Of a stretch of 64,000 nt of DNA, positions 19,718-32,233 are shown piece by piece (within the stretch, counting starts at the first letter, position 1; every line of letters starts with the position of its first letter). The position numbers and the translations under genes were made by a program. Origin of the DNA: Pseudomonas morbosilactucae (GTDB taxonomy: Bacteria > Pseudomonadota > Gammaproteobacteria > Pseudomonadales > Pseudomonadaceae). The DNA lies in assembly GCF_023241715.1 (NCBI RefSeq), contig NZ_JALQCW010000008.1:186001-250000 (forward strand). The letters run 5' to 3'. A model generated the notes under the pieces. The model made no database searches. It was not told the DNA's origin and saw only the letters and a list, made by a program, of their open reading frames with translations.

Positions 19718-21169
19718 TCAGCGTTGCGCTGGGCTGGCGTTGGCCGGGGCCGCTTGGGCCGCGGTAGCTGGGGTCTGCGGGTTGGCAGGCCAGGCTTTGG
19801 TGTCCAGGTCCAGGTCGGCGAACTTGCTGGAATCGAACACTGGGGTCTTGATCCCGGCAGCGCGCTGGTCGTCGTAGTCACGCAGGATGCGCATGGCGAC
19901 CTTGAACAGCAGGAACAGGGCGATCAGGTTGACGAACGCCAGCAGGGTCATGGTGATGTCGGCAAAGGCGAACACCGTGCCCAAGTCCTCGATCGCGCCC
20001 CAGAAGATCAGCACCAGCACCAGGGTGCGGTACAGGAGCAACGCGTTGCGGTTCTCGCCAAGCAGGAAGCGCAGGTTGTTCTCGCCCAGGTAGTAGTTGT
20101 AGAGGATCGAGGTGAACACGAACAACGCCAGGGCCACCGAGATGAACATCCGGCCCCATTCGCCGACCACGGCTGCCAGGGAGTTCTGGGTCAGGGCGAT
20201 GCCGTCACCTTCGAAGCCCGGGGTGTAGAAGCCCGACAGCAGGATCAGCAGCGCGGTGCAGGTGCAGATCACGAAGGTGTCGAGGAACACGCTGAACGCC
20301 TGTACCACGCCCTGTGCCACCGGGTGCTCGACCGAGGCCACCGCGGCCACGTTCGGCGCACTGCCCAGGCCGGCTTCGTTGGCGAATACGCCTCGTTTCA
20401 CGCCCATGATGATGGCGCTGCCCACCAGGCCACCGAAGGCTTGGTCCAGGCCGAAGGCGCTCTTGACGATGGTTGCCAGCATGGCCGGCACATGGTCGAA
20501 CTGCAGGACGATGACGTAGAGGGTCACGCCGATGTAGACCAGGGTCTTCACCGGTACCAGCAGGTCAGCGACCTTGGCGATGCGCTTGATGCCACCGACA
20601 AATACCAGGCCCAGCAGCACGGCCAGGGCCAGGCCGGTGTAGGTCGTGTTGAGGTCGAAGGCGTTTTTCAGCGAGTGGGTCACAGCGTGGGATTGCAGGC
20701 CGTTGAAGGCGAAACCGAAGGTCACCAGCAACAGGAAGGCCATGATCATGCCCAACCAGCGTTTCTGCAGGCCGTGCTGAATGTAGTACGACGGGCCGCC
20801 ACGGTATTGCCCTTCAGAGTCGCAGCGCTTGTAGAGCTGGCCCAGGGAGCATTCGAAGAAGCTGCTGGACATGCCCACCAGCGCGGTGACCCACATCCAG
20901 AACACGGCGCCAGGGCCGCCCAGGGTAACGGCGATGCCGACGCCTGCGATGTTGCCCGCACCGACGCGGCCGGCGAGGCTGAGCATCAGGGCCTGGAACG
21001 AACTGAGTTGGCCGGCGCTGCTTTTCAGGCTGTCGCGGAACACCGCGAACATATGGAAGAAGTGGCGCAATTGAACGAAACGCGAGCGGATCGTGAAGTA
21101 GCTACCGAGCCCGACAATGAGCACGATCAGTACTTTCCCTGAGAGGAAGTCGTTGATGACTTCGAGCAT
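19718..21169 (-). CDS. Sodium:alanine (AGCS family) symporter
   Basis: A 483-residue membrane protein with about 10-11 hydrophobic helices and AGCS-family signatures: GRVGAGNIAGVGIAVTLGGP (about 68-87) and GVFANEAGLGSAPNVAA (about 261-277). The family brings alanine, glycine or similar amino acids into the cell with sodium. The C-terminus ends in an Ala/Pro/Thr-rich tail of about 30 residues. GAGGAA precedes ATG 21169. The downstream neighbour is an asparaginase gene; the 408-bp upstream region up to 21577 has no gene I can support and must hold the promoters and the end of the Rieske operon. Confidence 0.88.
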   Translation of the reverse strand: MLEVINDFLSGKVLIVLIVGLGSYFTIRSRFVQLRHFFHMFAVFRDSLKSSAGQLSSFQALMLSLAGRVGAGNIAGVGIAVTLGGPGAVFWMWVTALVGMSSSFFECSLGQLYKRCDSEGQYRGGPSYYIQHGLQKRWLGMIMAFLLLVTFGFAFNGLQSHAVTHSLKNAFDLNTTYTGLALAVLLGLVFVGGIKRIAKVADLLVPVKTLVYIGVTLYVIVLQFDHVPAMLATIVKSAFGLDQAFGGLVGSAIIMGVKRGVFANEAGLGSAPNVAAVASVEHPVAQGVVQAFSVFLDTFVICTCTALLILLSGFYTPGFEGDGIALTQNSLAAVVGEWGRMFISVALALFVFTSILYNYYLGENNLRFLLGENRNALLLYRTLVLVLIFWGAIEDLGTVFAFADITMTLLAFVNLIALFLLFKVAMRILRDYDDQRAAGIKTPVFDSSKFADLDLDTKAWPANPQTPATAAQAAPANASPAQR

Positions 21170-21577
21170 GGAGTATTCCTCGCTGTTTTTTGTAAAGGCA
21201 AATGCTGGCCCGTTTGAAATATCTCGTTACATGGTCTTTTGCGGGCAGCAAAATCCATGGGGCGAGCTTTCGTCCCGGTTCCATATCGCGGGTTGTTATT
21301 AGTTCGGCTTTCGCATGTGGCTGGGCCTCGTGACCGAAGGCTGTGCATGCGAAGAGGGGGCGCACTATACCGGTGCGCGCGCCCGCCGTCTGCATGTTGC
21401 GCATTTGGCCGAGGAACGGCAGGGGCCGCGAGGGCTGAATCGGTTCTTGTCAGCGCCCCAACCCCCCGCAAAAAAACCACCCAAAACGCCCCCGCGCGCA
21501 CCCCTTGCATACGCCCAGGCGCCTACACATTCCGCGATGAGGCCTGCAAGACCAACATCCTCTGTGGGGGCTGGCCC

Positions 21578-22594
21578 CTACAGCCAGAAGGCGTCGTGCC
21601 GTTCCTGGAAATCGCGCAACTCTCCGTGTTCCAGCAACTGGCGGATCCAGGGCCCGAGCAAATCCTGCGGGCTGTCCTGGGGTGTGTCTCGACGCCAAGG
21701 GGCTGGGACGTCGGCAAAACGCTGCTGATTGGCGCTGAGTTTTTCCAGAATCTGCCGGTCCTGCCGCAGGATCACCTGGAACAGCGGCTGCAGCAGGCTG
21801 CGTTTGAGCCAGGCCGGGGCGCGGTGGCGGGCGGTGGCGATGCGCGCGAACAGGCGCAAGTGGCCATCAGCGGCCGGGGTGAGCCAGGCGCTGACCAACA
21901 AATTCAGGCGGCCCTGGCGGTCGCGGTATTCGATTTCTGCCAACCCCGGCAGGCGGAAGCGCCCCATGCTGACGCCGCGTTCTCCTTCGAACAGGCGGGA
22001 AATCAGTCCGGACTGGGTGCCTTCTTCGCTGTATTGCGCTTCGACGCCATCCTCCAACCGATGCACCCAGGTCCGAATGTGCTGGCGTTTGCGGTCGTGG
22101 CGAATCCACCCGGCATGGACGAAATGGGTATGGAAACCATCGAGAAAATTCTCCGCGGCATCCTGCAGCGAGCAGCGCACCTGGCTCTGAATCCAGAAGG
22201 TATCCAGGGCCTGGCGTTGTTCGGCAGGGGCCACCGGAGCGATCGTCGGGCGCTCGGGCGCCAGGCTGACCCACACCAGCCCTTGGGCTTCGCAACTGTG
22301 CAAGGGTTGCAGCAAGGCCTGGCTGCAGCGCTGCTGTTGCTGGCCCGGCAGGTGGGCGCAACGGCCCTGGGCGTCCAGGCGCCAGCCGTGGTACGGGCAT
22401 TCGATCTGCCCATCGCGCACCCGCCCGGCACTCAGCGGCGCGAAGCGATGGGGGCAACGGTCCGGCAGCGCTGCCGGCACGCCCTCGGCGTCGCGAAAGA
22501 TCACCAGTGGCACGCCCTGCAGGGTGCAGCCCAGCGGCTGGCGTTGCAGTTCGCGGCTCAGGGCCACGGGCCACCAGGCAAGGTTGGGTTTCAC
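21578..22594 (-). CDS. Rieske non-heme iron oxygenase
   Basis: A 338-residue ring-hydroxylase-type oxygenase. The N-terminal Rieske domain has CPHR (Cys47/His49) and CPYHGW (Cys66/His69). The C-terminal catalytic domain has ENFLDGFHTHFVHAG (about 140-155), with the Asp/His iron ligands. Enzymes of this VanA-like group hydroxylate, demethylate or desaturate small molecules, taking electrons from a separate reductase that is not encoded here. The start GTG 22594 overlaps the upstream stop codon (GTGA), implying translational coupling; the frame is open much further upstream but only as antisense-like sequence inside the preceding gene. It is the last gene of the seven-gene biosynthetic operon and likely a tailoring step. 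Confidence 0.86.
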   Translation of the reverse strand: MKPNLAWWPVALSRELQRQPLGCTLQGVPLVIFRDAEGVPAALPDRCPHRFAPLSAGRVRDGQIECPYHGWRLDAQGRCAHLPGQQQQRCSQALLQPLHSCEAQGLVWVSLAPERPTIAPVAPAEQRQALDTFWIQSQVRCSLQDAAENFLDGFHTHFVHAGWIRHDRKRQHIRTWVHRLEDGVEAQYSEEGTQSGLISRLFEGERGVSMGRFRLPGLAEIEYRDRQGRLNLLVSAWLTPAADGHLRLFARIATARHRAPAWLKRSLLQPLFQVILRQDRQILEKLSANQQRFADVPAPWRRDTPQDSPQDLLGPWIRQLLEHGELRDFQERHDAFWL

Positions 22595-23721
22595 AGTTTG
22601 AGCCTCCTCATCAGGGGCACTCCGATCCGCGTCAGCAGCAAGCTCAGCAACTGCCACACCAGGCGTCGGCCGCGGGACAGATGCGCCACGTGGACCAGGC
22701 TGTATTCGATCTCCGGCTGGCCGCCGCGCAGGCGTTTGAAGCCTGCGGCGCCGGAACTGAAGTTGAGGACTTGGCGCCGCTCCACCGCCTCCTGCAGGCA
22801 CAGCCGGGTCAGTTGTCGATACAGGCCGGCACGCTGGGGCAGGGCGGTGTCGTAGCCTACGATCGGCGTGCTGATCAGGGCGCTGTTGGCGAACCAGCCA
22901 AGGGCGCCGTCGATGCGCCCTTCGGGGCTGCGCAGGGCGCGCATTTCCAGCCAGCCTTCGGCCTGGCCGCGCTGCATCCATTGGGCGCTGTAGTGGGGGT
23001 TCAGGGTGCTGTATTTATCCAGGTACAGCAGGTTGTAGAGCTGCTCGATGCGCTGGAAGTCGGCCGCCTGCAGCTGTTCGCCGTGCACCAGGCTATAGGG
23101 GCTGCGGCGCAGCAGGGTGGCGTCGAGGCGGGTGTTGTGGTGGCGCAGGAAGGCCGCCCGCTCACCCTCGCGACCGTCGAACAGGTAGACCTGGCGGCTG
23201 GGGATGGCCAGGTAGCCCAGGGCTTGCAGGCGCTGGCGCAGCCCCGGGTTGCTGAAGTCGTTGAGCGAGCGAAAGCCGAAACCGTGATCGGGGAAGTCTC
23301 GCTTGAGCAGCTCGGTGATCGCCGGCAGGTCATCACCCGTCCAGTCGGGCGGGTAGAGGTTGGTCGACAGCAGCCAGTTATTGACCTGCACCAACCGGTC
23401 GACCTTGGCCGCTCGCAGCAGGCGGTCGACGCCTTGGGTCAGCAGCTTCAGCGGCCAGGTCAGCCAGGGCCGCTGCAGGCGTTTGAGCTCTTCCCGGGCG
23501 TAGCCGCTGTAGGCCGTCAGGGGCGAGACCACGTAGCAGTTGTCCGCCGGCTCGTTGCCATCGGTGATGCTGACCGGAAACTGCTGGCTGCCGGTGTCGA
23601 GTAGCGCCAGGCCGGTGCTGAGGTTGCCGATCAGCGTCGCGCCGGCGCAGGTCTGCACGTAACGCCGCGCCGGGCTGTCGTCAGGCAGTGCGGCCAGTTG
23701 TTCGGGGCGCAGCAGCTTCAT
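22591..23721 (-). CDS. GNAT-like acyltransferase, cluster gene
   Basis: A 376-residue protein whose second half resembles the GNAT/FemAB-like fold used for aminoacyl or acyl transfer. Visible features are the DIGALGW-like segment RIDGALGWFANSALISTPIV and, near 335-350, NFSSGAAGFKRLRGG, a pattern typical of FemAB-related acetyltransferases. The start ATG 23721 overlaps the ATP-grasp stop codon (ATGA). The substrate is unknown; within the operon it could acylate an amine on the product. No signal peptide or membrane helix, though the last 25 residues are hydrophobic and basic and could associate with the membrane. Confidence 0.72.
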   Translation of the reverse strand: MKLLRPEQLAALPDDSPARRYVQTCAGATLIGNLSTGLALLDTGSQQFPVSITDGNEPADNCYVVSPLTAYSGYAREELKRLQRPWLTWPLKLLTQGVDRLLRAAKVDRLVQVNNWLLSTNLYPPDWTGDDLPAITELLKRDFPDHGFGFRSLNDFSNPGLRQRLQALGYLAIPSRQVYLFDGREGERAAFLRHHNTRLDATLLRRSPYSLVHGEQLQAADFQRIEQLYNLLYLDKYSTLNPHYSAQWMQRGQAEGWLEMRALRSPEGRIDGALGWFANSALISTPIVGYDTALPQRAGLYRQLTRLCLQEAVERRQVLNFSSGAAGFKRLRGGQPEIEYSLVHVAHLSRGRRLVWQLLSLLLTRIGVPLMRRLKL

Positions 23722-24872
23722 GGTCGGGGGCTGTCCAGGCATTGGCCGTTCCACTCGATGTCGGCGGTGGAGGCGGCGAGCAAGCCGCAGCGACGGGTCA
23801 GGGCGCGGCCGATGATTTCCGCCAGGCTCAACACCTGGGCGGTCAGGGGGCCGCGATCGGCGCCCTGGACGATCACGTCCCGGGCGCGCCGGTAGTCGTG
23901 CCAGAACGCGCCGCTCAAGGCCCGTTGTGGGGCGGCCAGAAGCAGCATGGCCAGGGCGATCATCCGCGGTTCATGGGTCGCCTCCAGCGGCTCGGTCGCG
24001 ACAGTGCCGAGCGCCGCCACCAACGGTGAGCGCTGGTCGTCGAACAAGTGCACGCCGCTGGTGGCCCTGGGGTTGCATTCCAGGACCTGGAAGCGGCCCT
24101 GCCCATCCTCGATAAAGTCGAAGCCCACCTGCCCGGTGTAGCCGGTGGCGCGACCGAACTGCTCAATAAAGGCGCGGATGGGCGCGGGCGCGCAGCTGTT
24201 GAAGTAAATCCCGGAGCCGCGCCCGACCCGGTAGCGCGGCTGGTAGCAGCTATGGGCCCGCAACTGGCCGTCCACCAGCACGCTGAAACTGCAGTATTCC
24301 TGCCCGGCGACAAAGCGCTGGGCGACCCAGGGCGCGCTGGCCGTGGGCCGGACCTTGGCCAGTTGCGCAGCACTGGGGCGGATCAGGGTCTGGGAGGCGA
24401 AGCGTGAATACGCCGGCTTGAACACCAGTTGCTCACGCTCGGCGACAAGGGCCTGCACGTCTGTGGCGTCGTGCAGCAGTTGGGTGGGCGGCGCGGCCAC
24501 GTCCCAGCCTTGAGTCATGGCGGCGAACTGGCCCTTGTGATGCAGGCGATGCAGCAAATCGAAGGGGCTGGTGAACACCCGGCACAGCGGGCTCAGGCGT
24601 TCCAGGCCGTGAGCCAGGTAGAACACTTCTTCGCAGGTGGGCAGCAGCAAGTCGATGGCCTGTTGGCGGATCACCGTGGCCAGGGCTTCGATCCAGGCGT
24701 CGGGGTCTTGCCTGGGCTCGGGCAAGCGCACGAACTGCTCGGCCGAGCGGCTGAAGCGGCTCAAGGGGTGGGCCAGGGAATCGGCCACGGTGACGCTCCA
24801 GCCGGCGTGCTCGAAGGCTCGCGCCCACTCCAGGCAGGCCGGCGCGCGGGCGCCAAGAATCAGTACACGCAT
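23718..24872 (-). CDS. ATP-grasp ligase, cluster gene
   Basis: A 384-residue ATP-grasp enzyme. It has an N-terminal Rossmann-like part (RVLILGARAPACLEWARAFE), a central ATP-binding domain (LVFKPAYSRFASQ near 148-160) and the C-terminal metal/ATP motif GFDFIEDGQGRFQVLECNPR (about 249-268), followed by ATSGVHLF. Such ligases join a carboxylate to an amine or thiol through an acyl phosphate; the substrate is unknown. The 5' end overlaps the adenylating enzyme by 13 bp and the 3' end overlaps the GNAT-like gene by 4 bp. Confidence 0.82.
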   Translation of the reverse strand: MRVLILGARAPACLEWARAFEHAGWSVTVADSLAHPLSRFSRSAEQFVRLPEPRQDPDAWIEALATVIRQQAIDLLLPTCEEVFYLAHGLERLSPLCRVFTSPFDLLHRLHHKGQFAAMTQGWDVAAPPTQLLHDATDVQALVAEREQLVFKPAYSRFASQTLIRPSAAQLAKVRPTASAPWVAQRFVAGQEYCSFSVLVDGQLRAHSCYQPRYRVGRGSGIYFNSCAPAPIRAFIEQFGRATGYTGQVGFDFIEDGQGRFQVLECNPRATSGVHLFDDQRSPLVAALGTVATEPLEATHEPRMIALAMLLLAAPQRALSGAFWHDYRRARDVIVQGADRGPLTAQVLSLAEIIGRALTRRCGLLAASTADIEWNGQCLDSPRP

Positions 24873-26218
24873 GGCAGTCCCTCGGGGGCTTGAAGCATCT
24901 GTAGGCGACGGCGTTTGGCCTGGGGCGGCGATGGCTGCCAGTGGCCGAAGCTCAAGGTCGGGGCCTGCAAGCCTTGCTGGGCACAGAGCTCGCCAAGGGC
25001 CGCGCTTAGGCGTTGGCAGAGGTCGGGGTGGTCGCCGGGTGTCAGCAGGTTGACCTGCCAGTGGCGGCCCTGTTGGCGGATTTCGTATTCCTCCAGCGTC
25101 GGCCCCAGCATCAACAGGCAGCGGCGCAGCACGTCGGGATAAAGCGCGGCCAGGTGCCCGCCGTTGAGGCTGGGCAGCCAGAGGACTTCATCGGCGCGAC
25201 CTTCCACGGCAGCAATCGCCCGTTCGGCCCGGCCGCAGGGGCAGGGTGCGCTGGCGACCCGCAGAATGTCGTTGAGGCGATAACGCACGATCAGCTGCGT
25301 GCGCCGGGAAAAGTCGGTGATGATCGGCTGAAAACGGGTCTTCCCGGCGTCCAGCCATTGGGGCTCGATGTGCAGGTGGCTCTCGTTGAGGTGCAAGGTT
25401 CCGGCTTCGCAGGTGTAGCCGAGAAAGCCCTCGCTGGCCTGGTAGATCTGCTGGGCGTGGAGCCCGAAGGCGCTGTACACCGCCTCGGCATCGGTACTCT
25501 CCAGCACTTCGGCGACCGACAGGATGTGCCGTGGACGAATGCTCAAGTGGCCGGCCAGCGAGGCCTGGGCCAGCCCGCGCAGCACCGTGGCCGGGGCCAC
25601 CAATACATCCGGGTCCTGTTGGTTGAGGCGCTCCAGGGACGCCGGCAAACCGAGGGTCAGGTCGTGAAAGGCGAAGTCGATCCGGCGGCTGGCCAGGGTG
25701 GTGTACAGGCGGCTGTTGGCCCGCAGGAAGAAGGCAATTCGCAGCGGCGCCAGCCACGGGCACAACAGGCGCGGCAGCAACGCCCTGGGTAAAGTGCGCG
25801 CCAGCAGGATGCCGGCCCAGCGCTGGCGCTCCACGCTGCTGACCAGGAACACCCCCTGGGCCCCCGACGTGCCGCTGGACAGGCCGACGGTAATGTCGCC
25901 CAGGGTCGGGCTGAAGTCCCGGGACTGTTCGGCTGCGATGGCCACCGGCAGCACCTGCTCCAGGCTCAGGCCGCGGGTGTTGAAGGCGGCGAAGTCGTTC
26001 ATCAGCGTGGCCTTGTCCATGATCGGCAAGCTCTGCAGGTCACTCGCCCGCAGGTGCCGGAAGCGTTGCCCACGGGGCATGACCTTGGCCATGAAGTGCT
26101 TCAGGCGCCGGGCTTGCCAGGCTTGCAGCCGGTCGCGCCGCTGAAAGCGCAGGGCATAGCGGCTGAGGAGGAAAGAGGCGGCGCTGCGCAAGGTGCCGAT
26201 CAGGCGTTCACTGTTCAT
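24860..26218 (-). CDS. PaaK/F390-synthetase-like adenylate-forming enzyme
   Basis: A 452-residue member of the acyl-adenylating family in the branch related to coenzyme F390 synthetase and phenylacetate-CoA ligase. Visible are the phosphate loop GLSSGTSGAQGVFLV (about 112-126), the adenine-site region QASEGFLGYTCE (about 259-270), the late GRADEVLWLPS and a cysteine pair APCPCGRAE that could bind metal. It presumably activates a carboxylate as an acyl-AMP and passes it to a thiol, amine or hydroxyl; PaaK-type fusion to CoA is one option. It overlaps both neighbours by 11-13 bp, so synthesis is tightly linked with the MBL-fold and ATP-grasp proteins. Confidence 0.82.
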   Translation of the reverse strand: MNSERLIGTLRSAASFLLSRYALRFQRRDRLQAWQARRLKHFMAKVMPRGQRFRHLRASDLQSLPIMDKATLMNDFAAFNTRGLSLEQVLPVAIAAEQSRDFSPTLGDITVGLSSGTSGAQGVFLVSSVERQRWAGILLARTLPRALLPRLLCPWLAPLRIAFFLRANSRLYTTLASRRIDFAFHDLTLGLPASLERLNQQDPDVLVAPATVLRGLAQASLAGHLSIRPRHILSVAEVLESTDAEAVYSAFGLHAQQIYQASEGFLGYTCEAGTLHLNESHLHIEPQWLDAGKTRFQPIITDFSRRTQLIVRYRLNDILRVASAPCPCGRAERAIAAVEGRADEVLWLPSLNGGHLAALYPDVLRRCLLMLGPTLEEYEIRQQGRHWQVNLLTPGDHPDLCQRLSAALGELCAQQGLQAPTLSFGHWQPSPPQAKRRRLQMLQAPEGLPCVY

Positions 26219-27062
26219 CGAGGAAGGCCTGCCAGGCGTGGGTGCAATGGGAGGGCAGTACCGCCACCGCCGGTTCGCGGCGGATTAATTGCCCGAGGTC
26301 GCTGTAGGTGCGCCGGTACTGCCGTTGATCGGCGCTGGCAAACCACAGCGCCGGTGCGGCGGGCAGGCGTTCGGCGCGACAGGCCGGGACTGACCAGCAC
26401 GCGTCGGCCACCAGAAACACCGGCCGGCCCTCGGCGTCGGGGATAAACAGGCCCAGTTGGCCCTCACTGTGCCCCGGCAGCGGCACGCCGATCAGGCTGG
26501 CGTCGCCGAACAGGTCGAGGCCGCGTTCGAACGGCGTCATCCATGCGGGCAGGGCGCAGGCCGGGCTGGCATTGGCCAGGCGCAGGCGGGCGCTGAAGTC
26601 CTCCGGCAGCAATCCGGGCAAATGCCCGCCCAGGGTGGCGCGCCAGCGATGGCCGCGCAGGCTTTCAATGTGTTGATGGTCCGCTTCCAGGGCAATAAAG
26701 GTGGCGCGGGGGAAGTCCCGCAGGCCGGCGATATGGTCGGCGTGGAAGTGGGAAATGATCACGCAACGGATGTCTTCCGGGCCAATGCCCAGGGCATTCA
26801 GTTGGGCGAGCAACTGTTCCGCCACTGGCAACTGGACGGGCACGGCGCTGCGATACAGGCGCTCCGGCAGGGCACGGGTGGCCTGGAAAAAGTGCTCGGC
26901 GTAGCCCGTGTCGTAGAGGATCCAGCCGTGGTCCGGGTGTTGGATCAGGCCGCACAGCGCCGGGAACTGGCGGGGCGCCAGGCGTCCGCCGCGGTCGGCC
27001 ATGCATTCCAGGTGCTGGCACCAGCCGGCCCGCAGGATGTGCACCTGCACGCGACGGCTCAT
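26208..27062 (-). CDS. Metallo-beta-lactamase-fold hydrolase, cluster gene
   Basis: A 284-residue MBL-fold protein. The metal motif is intact as SHFHADHIAG (about 104-113), with further metal-site regions LPGHSEGQLG (about 193-202) and FLVADACW (about 214-221) and a late SHC. It is similar in layout to quorum-lactonase and other small-molecule ester or lactone hydrolases. In this operon it could open a lactone or release a thioester-bound intermediate; that is inference. The start ATG 27062 overlaps the epimerase-like stop codon (ATGA). Confidence 0.84.
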   Translation of the reverse strand: MSRRVQVHILRAGWCQHLECMADRGGRLAPRQFPALCGLIQHPDHGWILYDTGYAEHFFQATRALPERLYRSAVPVQLPVAEQLLAQLNALGIGPEDIRCVIISHFHADHIAGLRDFPRATFIALEADHQHIESLRGHRWRATLGGHLPGLLPEDFSARLRLANASPACALPAWMTPFERGLDLFGDASLIGVPLPGHSEGQLGLFIPDAEGRPVFLVADACWSVPACRAERLPAAPALWFASADQRQYRRTYSDLGQLIRREPAVAVLPSHCTHAWQAFLDEQ

Positions 27063-28066
27063 GCCGGTGGCCTCTGCTGTTCCAGCCACCAGCGGGCGTG
27101 CTGGGCAATGCCCTGGTCTTGGCTGATGACCGGGCGATAGCCCAGTTCGGCGCAGATGGCGCTGATGTCCAGGGTCTGGCTGAACGCCAGGACTCCGGCG
27201 CCGTAACGGGTGATCAGCGGCTCGCCGCCGTTGCCCAGGCGCGCCCGCAGTTCCAGCAATTGCGCCATCCGGTCCACCAGGCGCCAGGGCAATCGCCGGG
27301 TGCGCAGGGGCAGTTCGAAGTGCTTCGCCACCTGATCCAGCAGCGCCTTGAAGCTCAGCGGCGTGCCATTGCTCAGGTTATAGATGCACAGCCGGCGCGG
27401 CAGTGGCCGGGTCAGGGCCAGCCACACGGCCTCCACCAGGTTGTCCACGCAGGTCAGGTCCAGCTGCGCGTTGCCGCCGCGCATCAGCGGAATAGCCCCG
27501 CGCTGCATCACCCGCAGCAGGCGTGGCATCAGGGTCGCGTCCCAGGGGCCGAACACCGCCCTGGGCCGGAGGATCACGCATTGGGCCAGGTCGGCTTCGC
27601 GCAGCAGGGCCTCGGCCTGGGCTTTGCTGCGGGCGTAGTCGTTGACTGGCGGCGGCAGGGGCTGGTCTTCGCGGATGCCCAGGCGGTCGCGGAAGTTGAA
27701 GTACAGGCTGGGGGTGGACAGGTGCACCAGCCGTGGGATGTGGTGTTCCCGGCAGGCGTGGATCACTTCGGCGGTGGAGTCGAGGTTGGCGTGGGCAAAT
27801 GCCTGGGGCGAGCCCCAAGGGGATGACAAGGCCGCGCAGTGCACGATGGCATCGCAGCCTTGGCTGGCGTCGGCCAGCAGGCGTTGCCCTAGCGGGCTGC
27901 CGTGCTCCAGGGGCAACCAGCGCACCGGCGCCGGGCTGTGGGCCATGACCTCGGCGGCGGCCTTGGGGTTGCGCCCGCTGAACTGCACCTCGCAGCCTTC
28001 GCCAGCCAGGCGCCAGACCAGGTGCCGACCGATAAAGCCGGTGCCGCCGGTGACCAGAATCTTCAT
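27059..28066 (-). CDS. NAD(P)-dependent epimerase/dehydratase-family reductase, cluster gene
   Basis: A 335-residue extended short-chain dehydrogenase: GGTGFIGRHLVWRL at the N-terminus binds NAD(P), and the catalytic Ser...YARSK (about 145-149) is intact with HLSTPSLYF before it. The size and position after a KAS III-like gene recall OleD, which reduces beta-keto acids in long-chain olefin and beta-lactone pathways, and 3-beta-HSD-like enzymes. So reduction of a beta-keto acyl product is the favoured role. It overlaps the KAS gene by one base (TGATG) and the MBL gene by four. Confidence 0.84.
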   Translation of the reverse strand: MKILVTGGTGFIGRHLVWRLAGEGCEVQFSGRNPKAAAEVMAHSPAPVRWLPLEHGSPLGQRLLADASQGCDAIVHCAALSSPWGSPQAFAHANLDSTAEVIHACREHHIPRLVHLSTPSLYFNFRDRLGIREDQPLPPPVNDYARSKAQAEALLREADLAQCVILRPRAVFGPWDATLMPRLLRVMQRGAIPLMRGGNAQLDLTCVDNLVEAVWLALTRPLPRRLCIYNLSNGTPLSFKALLDQVAKHFELPLRTRRLPWRLVDRMAQLLELRARLGNGGEPLITRYGAGVLAFSQTLDISAICAELGYRPVISQDQGIAQHARWWLEQQRPPA

Positions 28067-29085
28067 CAGTACTCCAGGACCATGCCGCCGAGGGACAGGC
28101 CCGCGCCCGTGCCGATCAGCATCAGCCGTTGCCCGCGCTGGATGCGCCCGTCACGCACGGCGATGTCCAGGGCGGTGGGCAGGGACGCGGCCACCTGATT
28201 GCCGTGCCGGGCAAAGATATCAATGACCTTCTCCGGGCCCAGGGCCAGGCGTCGGGTCGCGTGCTGCATGGCTTGCTGGCTGGCTTGGTGGGGGATCACC
28301 CAGTCGATCTGTTCGCGGTTCAGCCCGGCCTGGTCCAGCAACTCGTCCATCAGCGTGGGCAGGTGCTTGGCGGCCAGGCGAAACACGCCTTTGCCGTGCA
28401 TGGCAAAGCTGGTCAGGGGTTCGAAGGGCACGTCGATGCGCCGTGGGTGATAGCGCGATCCGCCAGCGGGGATCTGGCACAGCTCGGCGCCTTCGGAATA
28501 GGTTTTCAGGCGAGAGGCGAGGATGGTTGCGCCACCGTCGCCGGCCCCCAGGACCACGGCTGCGGCGCCGTCGCCAAAGATCCCGCTGACTTCCACCTGC
28601 TGCCAGTCCAGGCCGCAGGAGGCGATATCGGCGCACACCAGCAGCACGCGCCGGTAATGCCCGGCCTGGATCGGCCAGGACAGGGTATCCAGGGCGGCGA
28701 TAAAGCCCAGGCAACTGGCGTTGATGTCCATGGCCGGGATGCCGGATTGGCCCAGCCCCAGCTCCCGTTGCAGCAAGGCGGCATTGCACGGCATGCCTTG
28801 GTCCTGGGTGCCGCTGGCGCAGACGATCAGGTCCAGTTGCCCCAGCTCCAACTGTGCCGCCAGCAGCGCCTTGCGGGCCGCGAGGGCGCCCAGGCTGGCG
28901 GCGTTTTCCGTTGGACTGGCGACATGCCGCTGCTGCACACCGCTGATGCGTTCCACGCTGCCGGTTTCCAGGCCGAGCTGGCGGTCCAGCTCGGCACTGG
29001 TGACCACCCGCTGAGGCAGGGCATGGCCGGTGCCGAGGATGGCCAGTGCGCGGGGCTTGGCAGGGGCTGGTTGAGACATGTGCAT
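28066..29085 (-). CDS. KAS III-like beta-ketoacyl synthase, cluster gene
   Basis: A 339-residue FabH/OleA-type condensing enzyme. The Cys-His-Asn triad is present: DINASCLGF (Cys about residue 125), VIPHQAS (His) and RHGNQVAASLP (Asn). The C-terminal IGTGAGLSLGGMVLEY is typical of the family. It would condense an acyl-CoA or acyl-ACP with another acyl unit. It is unlikely to be the housekeeping FabH, because it heads a private operon with no fatty-acid genes. I chose ATG 29085 (ACGGAA upstream); ATG 29079 and TTG 29106 are alternatives. Confidence 0.84.
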   Translation of the reverse strand: MHMSQPAPAKPRALAILGTGHALPQRVVTSAELDRQLGLETGSVERISGVQQRHVASPTENAASLGALAARKALLAAQLELGQLDLIVCASGTQDQGMPCNAALLQRELGLGQSGIPAMDINASCLGFIAALDTLSWPIQAGHYRRVLLVCADIASCGLDWQQVEVSGIFGDGAAAVVLGAGDGGATILASRLKTYSEGAELCQIPAGGSRYHPRRIDVPFEPLTSFAMHGKGVFRLAAKHLPTLMDELLDQAGLNREQIDWVIPHQASQQAMQHATRRLALGPEKVIDIFARHGNQVAASLPTALDIAVRDGRIQRGQRLMLIGTGAGLSLGGMVLEY

Positions 29086-29139
29086 GCAAATTCCGTTTCT
29101 GGGCAATAAGGCGAGGCGGGATAGCGGCGGGGTGATCCG

Positions 29140-29799
29140 TCAGGCGGGCTGAGGCGCTATCGGGCATTTCTCCAGCAGCAGCGCCAGCCCTTGCTGGTAA
29201 GCCTCGGGCTCCATGAGGTCACTGTGTTTGGCAACCATGTACAGCTGTTTTTTGGCCTCCAGTTTGGCGCAGGCCAGGAAATAGAAGTCGGCGTTTTCCT
29301 TGAAACTCACAATCTGGTCCCAGTCCAATCCGCTTTGGGCTCCTTTGCCGTTGATCATGACAAAACCCTGGTCTCCGAGCAGCAGGCGATAGGTGCCCTC
29401 GATGGATTTCAGCACGATGTGCAGTCGGGCCTTGATCAAGCGCTCCTGCGTGCCGCGAAAGTTTTTACGGGGCTTGGCGTAACTGGCACTGACGCCGGCC
29501 CTCAAGCGCGTCAGCCATTGGCCGGAAAAACGCCGCCAGAGCAGGGTCAGGATCAGGGTGTAGACGAGCGCGGCAATGATTTTCCCTGGGGTGATCTGCT
29601 GCGCGGGGAAATACATCGCCAGCGCCCCTGCCACCAGCAGCAGGCTGAACAGCAGCGGACCGAGCAGTTTTTTATGCCAGTGTTCCAGCCAGCGCATCCG
29701 CCGCGCCGTTTTTTCTTCATCCTTGCGCAACTCGAGTTCTAGCTGCTCCGCGAGTTTGAGGGCGGTGTATTCCGGGGTGATGCTGAACTGAAGTTCCAT
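29140..29799 (-). CDS. YcxB-like membrane protein
   Basis: A 219-residue protein with two hydrophobic segments in the first half (about 45-95) separated by a short polar turn, then a soluble C-terminal part containing LKSIEGTYRLLLGDQGFVMI and a downstream Trp-Asp-Gln-Ile segment. This layout matches the YcxB-like C-terminal domain family of unknown function. It lies 54 bp upstream of the KAS III-like gene on the same strand and may be the first gene of that operon, or simply a neighbour. Shine-Dalgarno is weak. Confidence 0.72.
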   Translation of the reverse strand: MELQFSITPEYTALKLAEQLELELRKDEEKTARRMRWLEHWHKKLLGPLLFSLLLVAGALAMYFPAQQITPGKIIAALVYTLILTLLWRRFSGQWLTRLRAGVSASYAKPRKNFRGTQERLIKARLHIVLKSIEGTYRLLLGDQGFVMINGKGAQSGLDWDQIVSFKENADFYFLACAKLEAKKQLYMVAKHSDLMEPEAYQQGLALLLEKCPIAPQPA

Positions 29800-29856
29800 G
29801 GTGATGAGGCTGACGTCCGTATCCGAGCAAGGGCGGCAGTTTACTCGCTCATCCGG

Positions 29857-30498
29857 TTACTGCGGGAACAGCGGGATATTCTCTTGCGCCAGGTTCAGCA
29901 GTGCCTCGTCCAGCTGCGGCTTGTGCCGTTGGTAAGCCTCGCGGCCCAGGCGCAGGTCGGGCTGTTCAAGGGCGTCCGCCAACTCCAGCCATTGCAAGTA
30001 CCTGAACTGGGCAATGGTTGGGGCCAGTTGGAAATGCACGGCGCTGTCAAAACCCTCCCAGTCTTCATAACTGGCCCACTCGTACAGCGTCATGAAGCAG
30101 CGCAGCGCCGGGGCCAGGGCGTCCAGTTGCTCGAGCGCCAGCCAGTAGGCGCGGTGAAGCTGATGCACGGTTTCCACGGCCTGGGCGATCAGGCTGACGG
30201 CATGGCCCGGGTCGCGGTGGTGTTTGCGCAAAATCCGTTGGGTCAGGGTAAAGCGCGCTTCCTCTATAGCAGCCAAGGCGCGGGGTAGGTCGTAGTCGGC
30301 GTGCTGCAAACAGTCCCGGGCCTGTTCAAGCGGCAGCCCGGACTGAGTCACCAGGTGCTGCAGCAACTCGGCCTTGAAACGTTCGGCAGCCTGCTGCGGA
30401 TCGCCCGCGCACTGTTCAAGCAGCACTTGCGCATGGCGCAGGCCCACGGGGACCCAACTGCGTAACTGTTGCAGGGCCTGGATGTGCGTCGGATCCAT
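29857..30498 (-). CDS. Unknown soluble protein
   Basis: A 213-residue, helix-rich, soluble protein with no family I recognise. It opens with a segment that looks like a UBA-type or ligand-binding three-helix bundle (about 3-90, with LRHAQVLLEQCAGDPQQAAE), then a longer helical part with a Trp/Tyr-rich stretch LYEWASYEDWEGFDSAVHFQ (about 143-162). I chose ATG 30498 (GAGG upstream). The frame runs 53 codons further upstream but across a REP element, so that extension is not real. Confidence 0.68.
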   Translation of the reverse strand: MDPTHIQALQQLRSWVPVGLRHAQVLLEQCAGDPQQAAERFKAELLQHLVTQSGLPLEQARDCLQHADYDLPRALAAIEEARFTLTQRILRKHHRDPGHAVSLIAQAVETVHQLHRAYWLALEQLDALAPALRCFMTLYEWASYEDWEGFDSAVHFQLAPTIAQFRYLQWLELADALEQPDLRLGREAYQRHKPQLDEALLNLAQENIPLFPQ

Positions 30499-30584
30499 CG
30501 ACTGAAATGCCTCGGTGTTGGGGGAGGCACGATTATCCACCGTGACGCACGAGTCTGCGCTGCTAAAACGGCCAATGGCTTTTT

Positions 30585-30670
30585 GTAGGAGCCGGCTTGC
30601 CGGCGATGGCGTCGGTTGGGGTGATGAGGAGGGCAGGCCGGGCTTTATCGCTGGCAAGCCAGCTCCTACA
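30585..30670. repeat. Inverted pair of REP elements
   Basis: GTAGGAGCCGGCTTGCCGGCG and its imperfect inverted copy ending GGCAAGCCAGCTCCTAC flank about 40 bp of unrelated sequence, the usual Pseudomonas REP doublet in a spacer. Confidence 0.85.
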
Positions 30671-30704
30671 AAGGCACGCGGTGTTGGGGGGGCGTTTTTT
30701 GGGC

Positions 30705-30739
30705 AAAAAAAAGGGCCTGGAGAGTGATCTCCAGGCCCT
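30705..30739 (-). terminator. Rho-independent terminator of aspA
   Basis: A perfect 12-bp stem, AGGGCCTGGAGA/TCTCCAGGCCCT with a 4-nt loop, followed on the minus strand by eight T residues. It lies about 70 bp after the aspA stop codon. Confidence 0.93.
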
Positions 30740-30808
30740 CAAAAGGTGAGAGGTGTCTAGTCCCTCAGCCTGGTGAGCGTGGCCCTGGGTTGGCAGGGCG
30801 GCGTTGGT

Positions 30809-32233
<1,425 letters not shown>

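Follow-up and report, generated by a model that had tools for sequence, protein, structure and literature searches.

In the OleA-OleB-OleC-OleD pathway, a thiolase-superfamily condensing enzyme is combined with a short-chain dehydrogenase/reductase (SDR), OleD, and an adenylating enzyme. Two other condensing enzymes, MxnB of the myxopyronin and CorB of the corallopyronin pathway, join two acyl chains head-to-head, a reaction for which OleA and PpyS use a glutamate (PMC4578411; PMC5724707). This glutamate base (E117 in OleA, E105 in PpyS), the role of which is described in PMC4578411, is missing in MxnB and CorB. Here we describe a seven-gene operon of Pseudomonas morbosilactucae that resembles both systems in part. 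It lies in a 64,000-nucleotide stretch, hereafter the window, of contig NZ_JALQCW010000008.1 (positions 186,001 to 250,000 of the forward strand; assembly GCF_023241715.1, genome size 7.23 Mb), where it occupies ~7.5 kb of the minus strand from position 29085 (or 29079) to 21578. The first four genes, which we call the core quartet, encode a β-ketoacyl-acyl carrier protein (ACP) synthase III (KAS III)-like condensing enzyme, an OleD-like reductase, a metallo-β-lactamase (MBL)-fold hydrolase and an F390 synthetase-related, PaaK-like adenylating enzyme (the F390 protein). They are followed by a tail of three genes for an ATP-grasp ligase-like enzyme, a tandem GCN5-related N-acetyltransferase (GNAT) protein and a Rieske non-haem iron oxygenase. 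With moderate confidence we propose that the operon is accessory and directs the synthesis of a specialised, lipid-like product derived from fatty acids; the core genes would build a scaffold and the tail genes would decorate it.

Every enzyme of the operon falls within a known superfamily, and the gene-cluster family is apparently undescribed. The literature searched yielded no characterised cluster composed of these genes. In agreement with the initial annotation of the window, Pfam and NCBIfam scans of the seven proteins detected no non-ribosomal peptide synthetase (NRPS), no polyketide synthase (PKS) module and no carrier protein. TIGR02304, PRK07204 and PRK06849, three family models matched by the operon proteins, were not mentioned in the literature searched. 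To our knowledge, the putative scaffold product of the four linked core genes has no name.

A core quartet beside exchangeable tails

A scan with the alignment of the F390 protein and one peptide pattern returned 570 relatives, and the best 80 named loci were used for all counts out of 80. A gene was counted as present when its best match anywhere in the fetched stretch (at most ~19 kb) reached at least 100 bits and half of the profile; the adjacency of core and tail genes was seen in the gene orders and was not counted. The core quartet was present in 66 of the 80 loci, a figure that leans to close relatives because the best 80 of the 570 were taken, and several loci were cut by contig ends. 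It spanned Pseudomonadota, Bacillota, Actinomycetota, Acidobacteriota, Gemmatimonadota and Verrucomicrobiota. All seven genes were found in 23 of the 80 loci, and the others were without one or more members, partly at contig ends.

Three tails recurred beside the quartet. Apart from the ATP-grasp, tandem GNAT and Rieske genes of the window, these were a PAP2 phosphatase-family gene (22/80) with a fatty-acid hydroxylase (FA_hydroxylase, 21/80) and a fatty-acid desaturase (FA_desaturase, 20/80), and two glycosyltransferases, one of GT21 and one of GT1 type (14/80 each), frequently accompanied by a small protein that had no Pfam match (11/80). The sole NCBIfam match of the hydroxylase was the ornithine lipid hydroxylase OlsE (77 of 475 bits), and the GT21 enzyme was nearest to HpnI (109 of 310 bits). 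A literature search for the PAP2, hydroxylase and desaturase combination returned plant papers only. In a gammaproteobacterial metagenome-assembled genome (L092) the ATP-grasp/GNAT/Rieske operon was followed by the PAP2/hydroxylase/desaturase tail, and in Citrobacter gillenii (L138) the latter tail was accompanied by the glycosyltransferases of the third. In two loci of Bacillota and one of Succinimonas (L110, L130, L131) the ATP-grasp gene stood in second place and no Rieske gene was seen. In a Herbiconiux locus, an open frame downstream of the core (L114:11493-13766) resembled a cytochrome P450 by eye and is perhaps another oxidising tail.

On an 82-row tree of the F390 protein, the tail labels changed 9 times, where 5 changes would be the least possible. 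This suggests that tails were exchanged between cores, although the tree was a quick one, with long branches and some unsure placements. PAP2, FA_hydroxylase, FA_desaturase, GT21 and the GT1-type glycosyltransferase belong to families that act on lipids, and our main argument for a lipid-like product is that these tails adjoin the same core in other species. Several points weigh against this proposal: the lipid nature is read from neighbours in other species, 13 rows of the tree had none of the three tails, and the MBL gene was missing in several actinobacterial loci, so the hydrolase may not be essential. The view of the initial annotation that the genes form a unit for the synthesis of an acyl-derived product is supported. 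Free variation of the neighbours, named there as a sign against a unit, was not seen for the core quartet (66 of 80), but the tail genes are replaced by others.

The same quartet occurred in Escherichia coli, where 671 of 5,426 complete genomes held at least 80% of a seven-gene operon in which PAP2, sterol desaturase-family and fatty acid desaturase genes accompany it (L164:6185-13066; L169:4501-11382). In strain JJ2434 this operon was located between narI and a tRNA-Tyr gene/purU. The quartet of the narI-purU operon has the same order as in the window, with proteins 37-45% identical to the window proteins, whereas PAP2, hydroxylase and desaturase genes stand where the window has the ATP-grasp, GNAT and Rieske genes. 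No paper in the literature searched for the gene set named the E. coli operon, and none of these searches was aimed at the narI-purU locus. One E. coli record labelled as a plasmid (L164; NZ_CP141085.1) carries narGHJI, purU, rssAB, galU and hns and looks like a mislabelled piece of chromosome.

Relatives of the F390 protein were found in 26 of 72,556 plasmid records, five of which (Paraburkholderia, Shinella, Pontibacillus, P. amygdali and E. coli) were opened with an incomplete gene table. The Paraburkholderia plasmid held the quartet with ATP-grasp and GNAT genes, the Shinella plasmid all seven genes with the ATP-grasp gene inverted, and the Pontibacillus plasmid KAS III, ATP-grasp, reductase, MBL and F390 genes. 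On the P. amygdali megaplasmid pMPPla107, an F390-related gene (L165:8899-10197) had no other genes of the cluster as neighbours in this incomplete table. A phage origin was considered and dropped, as no F390 relative was found in 50,697 phage records (E 1e-5) and none was confirmed in viral contigs.

Conservation among relatives and insertion site

All seven genes are under purifying selection, with dN/dS values of 0.13-0.25 in three comparisons with other Pseudomonas loci (0.13-0.18 for KAS III). The nearest named relative was P. chlororaphis 14D6, with 98% identity over the F390 protein. Eighteen loci of the same genus or family were fetched by a match to the F390 or ATP-grasp query, and the order of the six genes from the reductase to the Rieske enzyme was kept in 15 of them (one cut by a contig end). 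Together with the dN/dS values and the presence of all seven genes in 23 of the 80 loci, this genome-neighbourhood check bore out the view of the genes as a conserved unit. Of the remaining three, L045 has the last three genes behind an F390 remnant, L051 is an ATP-grasp relative standing alone and L052 carries a different tail. In the first of these (L045:9343-12735, Pseudomonas), the ATP-grasp, GNAT and Rieske genes are kept, the F390 protein consists of its last 39 residues only and no reductase or MBL match was found before it, and it therefore resembles a copy that has undergone deletion or rearrangement. In a further locus the OleD-like gene was split into two reading frames (L063:5982-6991) within an otherwise complete cluster, either by a true frameshift or by a sequencing error.

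The operon is accessory. Including the genome of the window itself, 8 of 99 genomes from the genus scored above the TIGR02304 cut-off, and the ATP-grasp protein had matches in 14 of 398 genomes at family level (E 1e-10) and 8 of 398 at phylum level (E 1e-30). Twelve of the 14 family places were fetched, as were all genomes of the genus with an F390 match over the cut-off except the window's own. Five of the seven other phylum matches had genes of the cluster around them and two had none (L059, L064). With L051, three ATP-grasp relatives stand outside such a cluster, which weighs against our proposal.

In 8 of 8 Pseudomonas genomes fetched as an empty-site test (chosen from 40), aspA was adjacent to the gene of a transporter that we take to be of the AGCS family, and none of the 8 had an F390 match in the TIGR02304 scan of the genus. 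In the window, ~9.6 kb (21169-30809) separates the two genes and consists of the operon with a YcxB-like and a UBA/TAP_C-like gene. Either aspA or the transporter gene also stood beside the operon in three other loci (L055, L056, L057), and neither was found there in the remaining fetched loci of the genus and family; the site differs between species.

This distribution also bears on a different reading of the tails, by which the genes would form a membrane-lipid head-group operon near the bacterial sphingolipid or aminolipid pathways, with a structural lipid as product and the tandem GNAT protein as an N-acyltransferase. GT21, PAP2_3, the OlsE-like hydroxylase and the desaturase resemble modifiers of sphingolipids and ornithine lipids, and a reductase (CerR) and an acyltransferase (bCerS) also take part in bacterial ceramide synthesis. 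However, such an operon fits poorly with the sparse occurrence in the genus and the empty sites, and no gene for a serine palmitoyltransferase-like protein or an ACP was present among the seven genes, the rest of the genome not having been searched. We regard a structural membrane lipid as rather improbable.

The condensing enzyme

The KAS III-like protein scored above the cut-off of PRK09352 (262.9 bits, cut-off 249), just below that of PRK07204 (388.7, cut-off 402) and below that of fabH (246.6, cut-off 292.1). Its catalytic triad C123/H264/N294 was invariant in 21 aligned proteins. When its profile was compared with solved structures, MxnB (4v2p, 333.8 bits) and CorB (4yuc, 323.8 bits) were nearest, followed by FabH (269.9 bits at best), PqsD (171 bits) and OleA (118 bits; 3s21 and 3s23, the latter named as OleA in PMC5724707); PqsC was also among the matches. 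The enzyme shares with MxnB and CorB the Cys-His-Asn triad, the active-site stretch NASCL(G/S)F and the absence of the glutamate base. In the column of the OleA/PpyS glutamate, all 21 aligned proteins had Met, Leu or Ile (Met in the window protein), and MxnB and CorB had Val94. The missing glutamate suggests condensation on an already activated carbon (β-keto or malonyl). The operon differs from the two antibiotic pathways in that it has no modular PKS for chain supply and that a reductase and a ligase follow downstream.

From these similarities the enzyme may condense two chains head-to-head. Some observations count against this reading: FabH has the same triad without the glutamate, and the window protein was 38-39% identical to MxnB and CorB and 34-37% identical to two FabH proteins. 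In a tree, MxnB and CorB joined the two FabH proteins against most enzymes of the cluster with a support of 0.85, neighbouring forks being weak. Because the identities to MxnB/CorB and to FabH are close, a FabH-like condensation with malonyl units could also apply.

The remaining core enzymes and possible products

OleD was the nearest NCBIfam model of the reductase. Y144 and K148 were invariant in 21 aligned proteins, the nucleotide-binding loop was kept and the best solved structure was the sterol-4-alpha-carboxylate 3-dehydrogenase 6jkg. The MBL hydrolase scored 56.7 bits with PF00753 (cut-off 22.7), and its metal ligands H105/H107/D109/H110, H198 and D220 were invariant in 21 aligned proteins. 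Its best solved structures were N-acylhomoserine lactone (AHL) lactonases, and its scores stayed below the cut-offs of the curated AHL-lactonase models (AttM, 70.9 of 390; AiiA, 41.6 of 375). A quorum-quenching operon was dropped as a candidate on account of these scores and of the condensing enzyme, which would be out of place there.

The initial annotation had likened the operon to the logic of OleA, OleD and OleC. If the core worked in this manner, the product would be a β-lactone, closed by the PaaK-like enzyme, and the MBL protein would be a lactonase for self-protection or processing. The nearest model of the reductase and the nearest structures of the hydrolase agree with this idea. The comparison is nevertheless supported only in part: the reductase reached 167 bits, far under the OleD cut-off of 580, the condensing enzyme lacks the catalytic glutamate of OleA and PpyS and is nearer to MxnB/CorB and FabH, and the ligase is PaaK/F390-like. 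Among the seven proteins no OleB-like α/β hydrolase was found (Pfam, E 0.01; the rest of the genome was not searched). Relative to the Ole pathway, the operon further adds the MBL, ATP-grasp, tandem GNAT and Rieske enzymes. A β-lactone is therefore, in our estimate, very unlikely to be the product.

The F390 protein scored 386.6 bits with TIGR02304 (cut-off 251.9). The residues S114/G116/G119 of the loop typical of the acyl-CoA synthetase/NRPS adenylation domain/luciferase (ANL) superfamily, the motif C326-x-C328-G329 and the C-terminal K435 were invariant in 9 aligned proteins. An OleC model was not among its 5 NCBIfam matches, the library not having been checked for such a model. The best solved relative was phenylacetate-CoA ligase, followed by the PaaK-like AjiA1. 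These relatives would suit an aromatic-starter pathway in the style of the Pseudomonas quinolone signal (PQS) and alkylquinolones, in which the PaaK-like enzyme would make an aryl-coenzyme A (CoA) ester, KAS III would condense it with malonyl-ACP or malonyl-CoA, the MBL protein would be a thioesterase like PqsE, and the reductase, Rieske enzyme and ligases would finish an aryl-alkyl product. A ligase of the ANL superfamily recurs here with KAS III and MBL proteins, as it does in the set of pqsA, pqsD and pqsE, and PqsD and PqsC were among the structure matches of the condensing enzyme. However, PqsD scored 171 bits against 334 for MxnB, the ~60-70 bits between the ligase and PaaK-type enzymes are a weak guide to its substrate, and the fatty-acid hydroxylase, desaturase, GT21 and PAP2 genes of the other tails point to alkyl or lipid substrates. 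We consider an aromatic starter unlikely.

Enzymes of the ATP-grasp, GNAT and Rieske tail

The ATP-grasp protein scored 440.7 bits with PRK06849 (cut-off 406), and K152 and E265-C-N267-P-R were invariant in 14 aligned proteins. Its predicted model (pLDDT 90.9) was nearest to the carbamoyl phosphate synthetase (CPSase)-like protein 2pn1 (Z 25.6, root-mean-square deviation (rmsd) 2.6, 277 aligned residues), with PurD, PurK, PylC and biotin carboxylase within a few Z units and L-amino acid ligases among the Foldseek matches. Many of these fold relatives ligate an acid to an amine; the closeness of biotin carboxylases weighs against assigning this reaction here.

For the GNAT protein, the initial call found no counterpart in Pfam or NCBIfam at E 0.01 and was recovered as a fold. 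A homologue from Bacillota barely reached PF13480 (22.3 of 22 bits), and a search of solved structures with the GNAT sequence profile gave three weak, meaningless rows only. The predicted model (pLDDT 93.1) has a tandem GNAT fold. With VIA-align, it was nearest to the aminoacyl-tRNA-dependent peptide synthase Sbb17 (Z 16.7, rmsd 3.7, 259 aligned residues), tied with FemX (Z 16.0) and followed by MprF (15.6), with MprF and related domains at 13-15.6. The fold is shared with Sbb17/Sba18, FemX and the MprF domain over most of the protein (Z ~13-16.7), at identities of 9-15%, and the window protein stands alone, without the membrane domain of MprF. Since it folds like aminoacyl-tRNA-dependent transferases, transfer of an amino acid is likelier than simple acylation. 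The acylation step suggested in the initial annotation is thus probably an aminoacylation. Two findings temper this assignment. CoA-dependent enzymes interleaved with the lower aminoacyl-transferase rows; they comprised VipF (Z 14.1, rmsd 8.4), MAB_4324 (13.8, 6.6) and MshD (12.6, 6.4), all at larger rmsd, and N-myristoyltransferase (11.8). In Foldseek, the first row was an unannotated staphylococcal protein and Sbb17 was second. We therefore favour transfer of an amino acid, short of proof.

The Rieske protein scored 78.1 bits with PF00355 (cut-off 20.3) and 39 bits with VanA_C. Its metal sites C47/H49/C66/H69 and D152/H155/H160 were invariant in 11 aligned proteins, and the best solved structures were SxtT and dicamba monooxygenase. 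A reductase partner for this enzyme was not seen among the seven genes.

Gene organisation and neighbouring genes

The coordinates of the genes and of their surroundings are listed in Table 1. As initially described, the seven genes overlap by 1-13 bp and each of the last six begins within the end of its upstream neighbour; the catalytic motifs are intact. Read from the sequence, the overlaps are 1 bp (28066) between KAS III and the OleD-like reductase, 4 bp (27059-27062) between the latter and MBL, 11 bp (26208-26218) between MBL and F390, 13 bp (24860-24872) between F390 and ATP-grasp, 4 bp (23718-23721) between ATP-grasp and GNAT, when the ATG at the start position of the homologues is used, and 4 bp (22591-22594) between GNAT and Rieske, the GTG of which is preceded by AGGAGG.

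Table 1. Features of the operon and its surroundings in the window.
Feature	Position	Strand	Remarks
KAS III-like condensing enzyme	28066..29085	-	core gene 1; ATG start at 29085 or 29079
OleD-like NAD(P)-dependent SDR reductase	27059..28066	-	core gene 2
MBL-fold hydrolase, AHL-lactonase-like	26208..27062	-	core gene 3
F390 synthetase-related/PaaK-like adenylating enzyme	24860..26218	-	core gene 4
ATP-grasp ligase-like enzyme	23718..24872	-	tail gene
Tandem-GNAT protein, aminoacyl-tRNA-dependent transferase-like	22591..23721	-	tail gene
Rieske non-haem iron oxygenase	21578..22594	-	tail gene; GTG start
YcxB-like protein	29140..29799	-	upstream; clade-specific companion
Terminator-like hairpin	30711..30740	-	after aspA, upstream of the unit; 13-pair stem, then T run
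Presumed AGCS-family transporter	19718..21169	-	flanks the insertion; outside the operon

The YcxB-like gene had been suggested to head the unit. It does adjoin it upstream, and without overlap, because its stop lies 54 nt from the KAS III start at 29085. However, it was present in 11 of 99 loci scanned, ten of them named (including P. chlororaphis, P. protegens and P. farsensis), and is therefore a companion in one clade only. Its product scored 20.3 bits with PF14317, under the cut-off of 23.3. Further upstream, as in L055 and L056, lies a gene with a TAP_C/UBA-like domain (29857-30657), which is rare in bacteria.

The G+C content was 0.681 in the operon and 0.643 and 0.626 in the flanks. 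No promoter-like site was detected in a sigma-70 scan. The stretch has 7 terminator-like sites, where shuffled sequences lead one to expect 6.2, so the hairpin listed in Table 1 is to be read as a consensus match only.

Proposed pathway and implications

Taking the enzyme families together, we infer the following substrates and order of steps. The KAS III-like enzyme would condense an acyl thioester with a partner, which may be a β-ketoacyl or acyl chain, as for MxnB and CorB, or malonyl-ACP. The OleD-like reductase would then convert the β-ketone to a β-hydroxyl, the MBL enzyme may hydrolyse a thioester or lactone, and the PaaK-like enzyme would activate the acid by conversion to its adenylate or CoA ester. 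The ATP-grasp enzyme could couple the molecule to an amino acid or amine through an amide bond, while the tandem GNAT protein would aminoacylate a hydroxyl or amine, with aminoacyl-tRNA as the probable donor. The Rieske enzyme would oxidise the molecule.

More tentatively, and with less confidence than not, we suggest that the core quartet marks a hitherto undescribed family of modular lipids or lipid-like metabolites that spans several bacterial phyla and has a member in roughly one of every eight complete E. coli genomes. One chain-fusing scaffold pathway would be combined with tails that can be swapped and that contribute sugars, phosphate/oxidation or, through an ATP-grasp ligase and an aminoacyl-tRNA-dependent transferase, amino acids. 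If so, four linked genes found from Acidobacteriota to E. coli would represent one scaffold pathway, and the tails would tell its decoration. If a tRNA-dependent transferase and an ATP-grasp ligase both acted on one lipid scaffold, amino acids would be added without an NRPS, which would be unusual. The Pseudomonas operon is small enough for expression as a whole, so that its product is open to direct tests, and knowledge of this product would also inform on the operon carried by those E. coli genomes.

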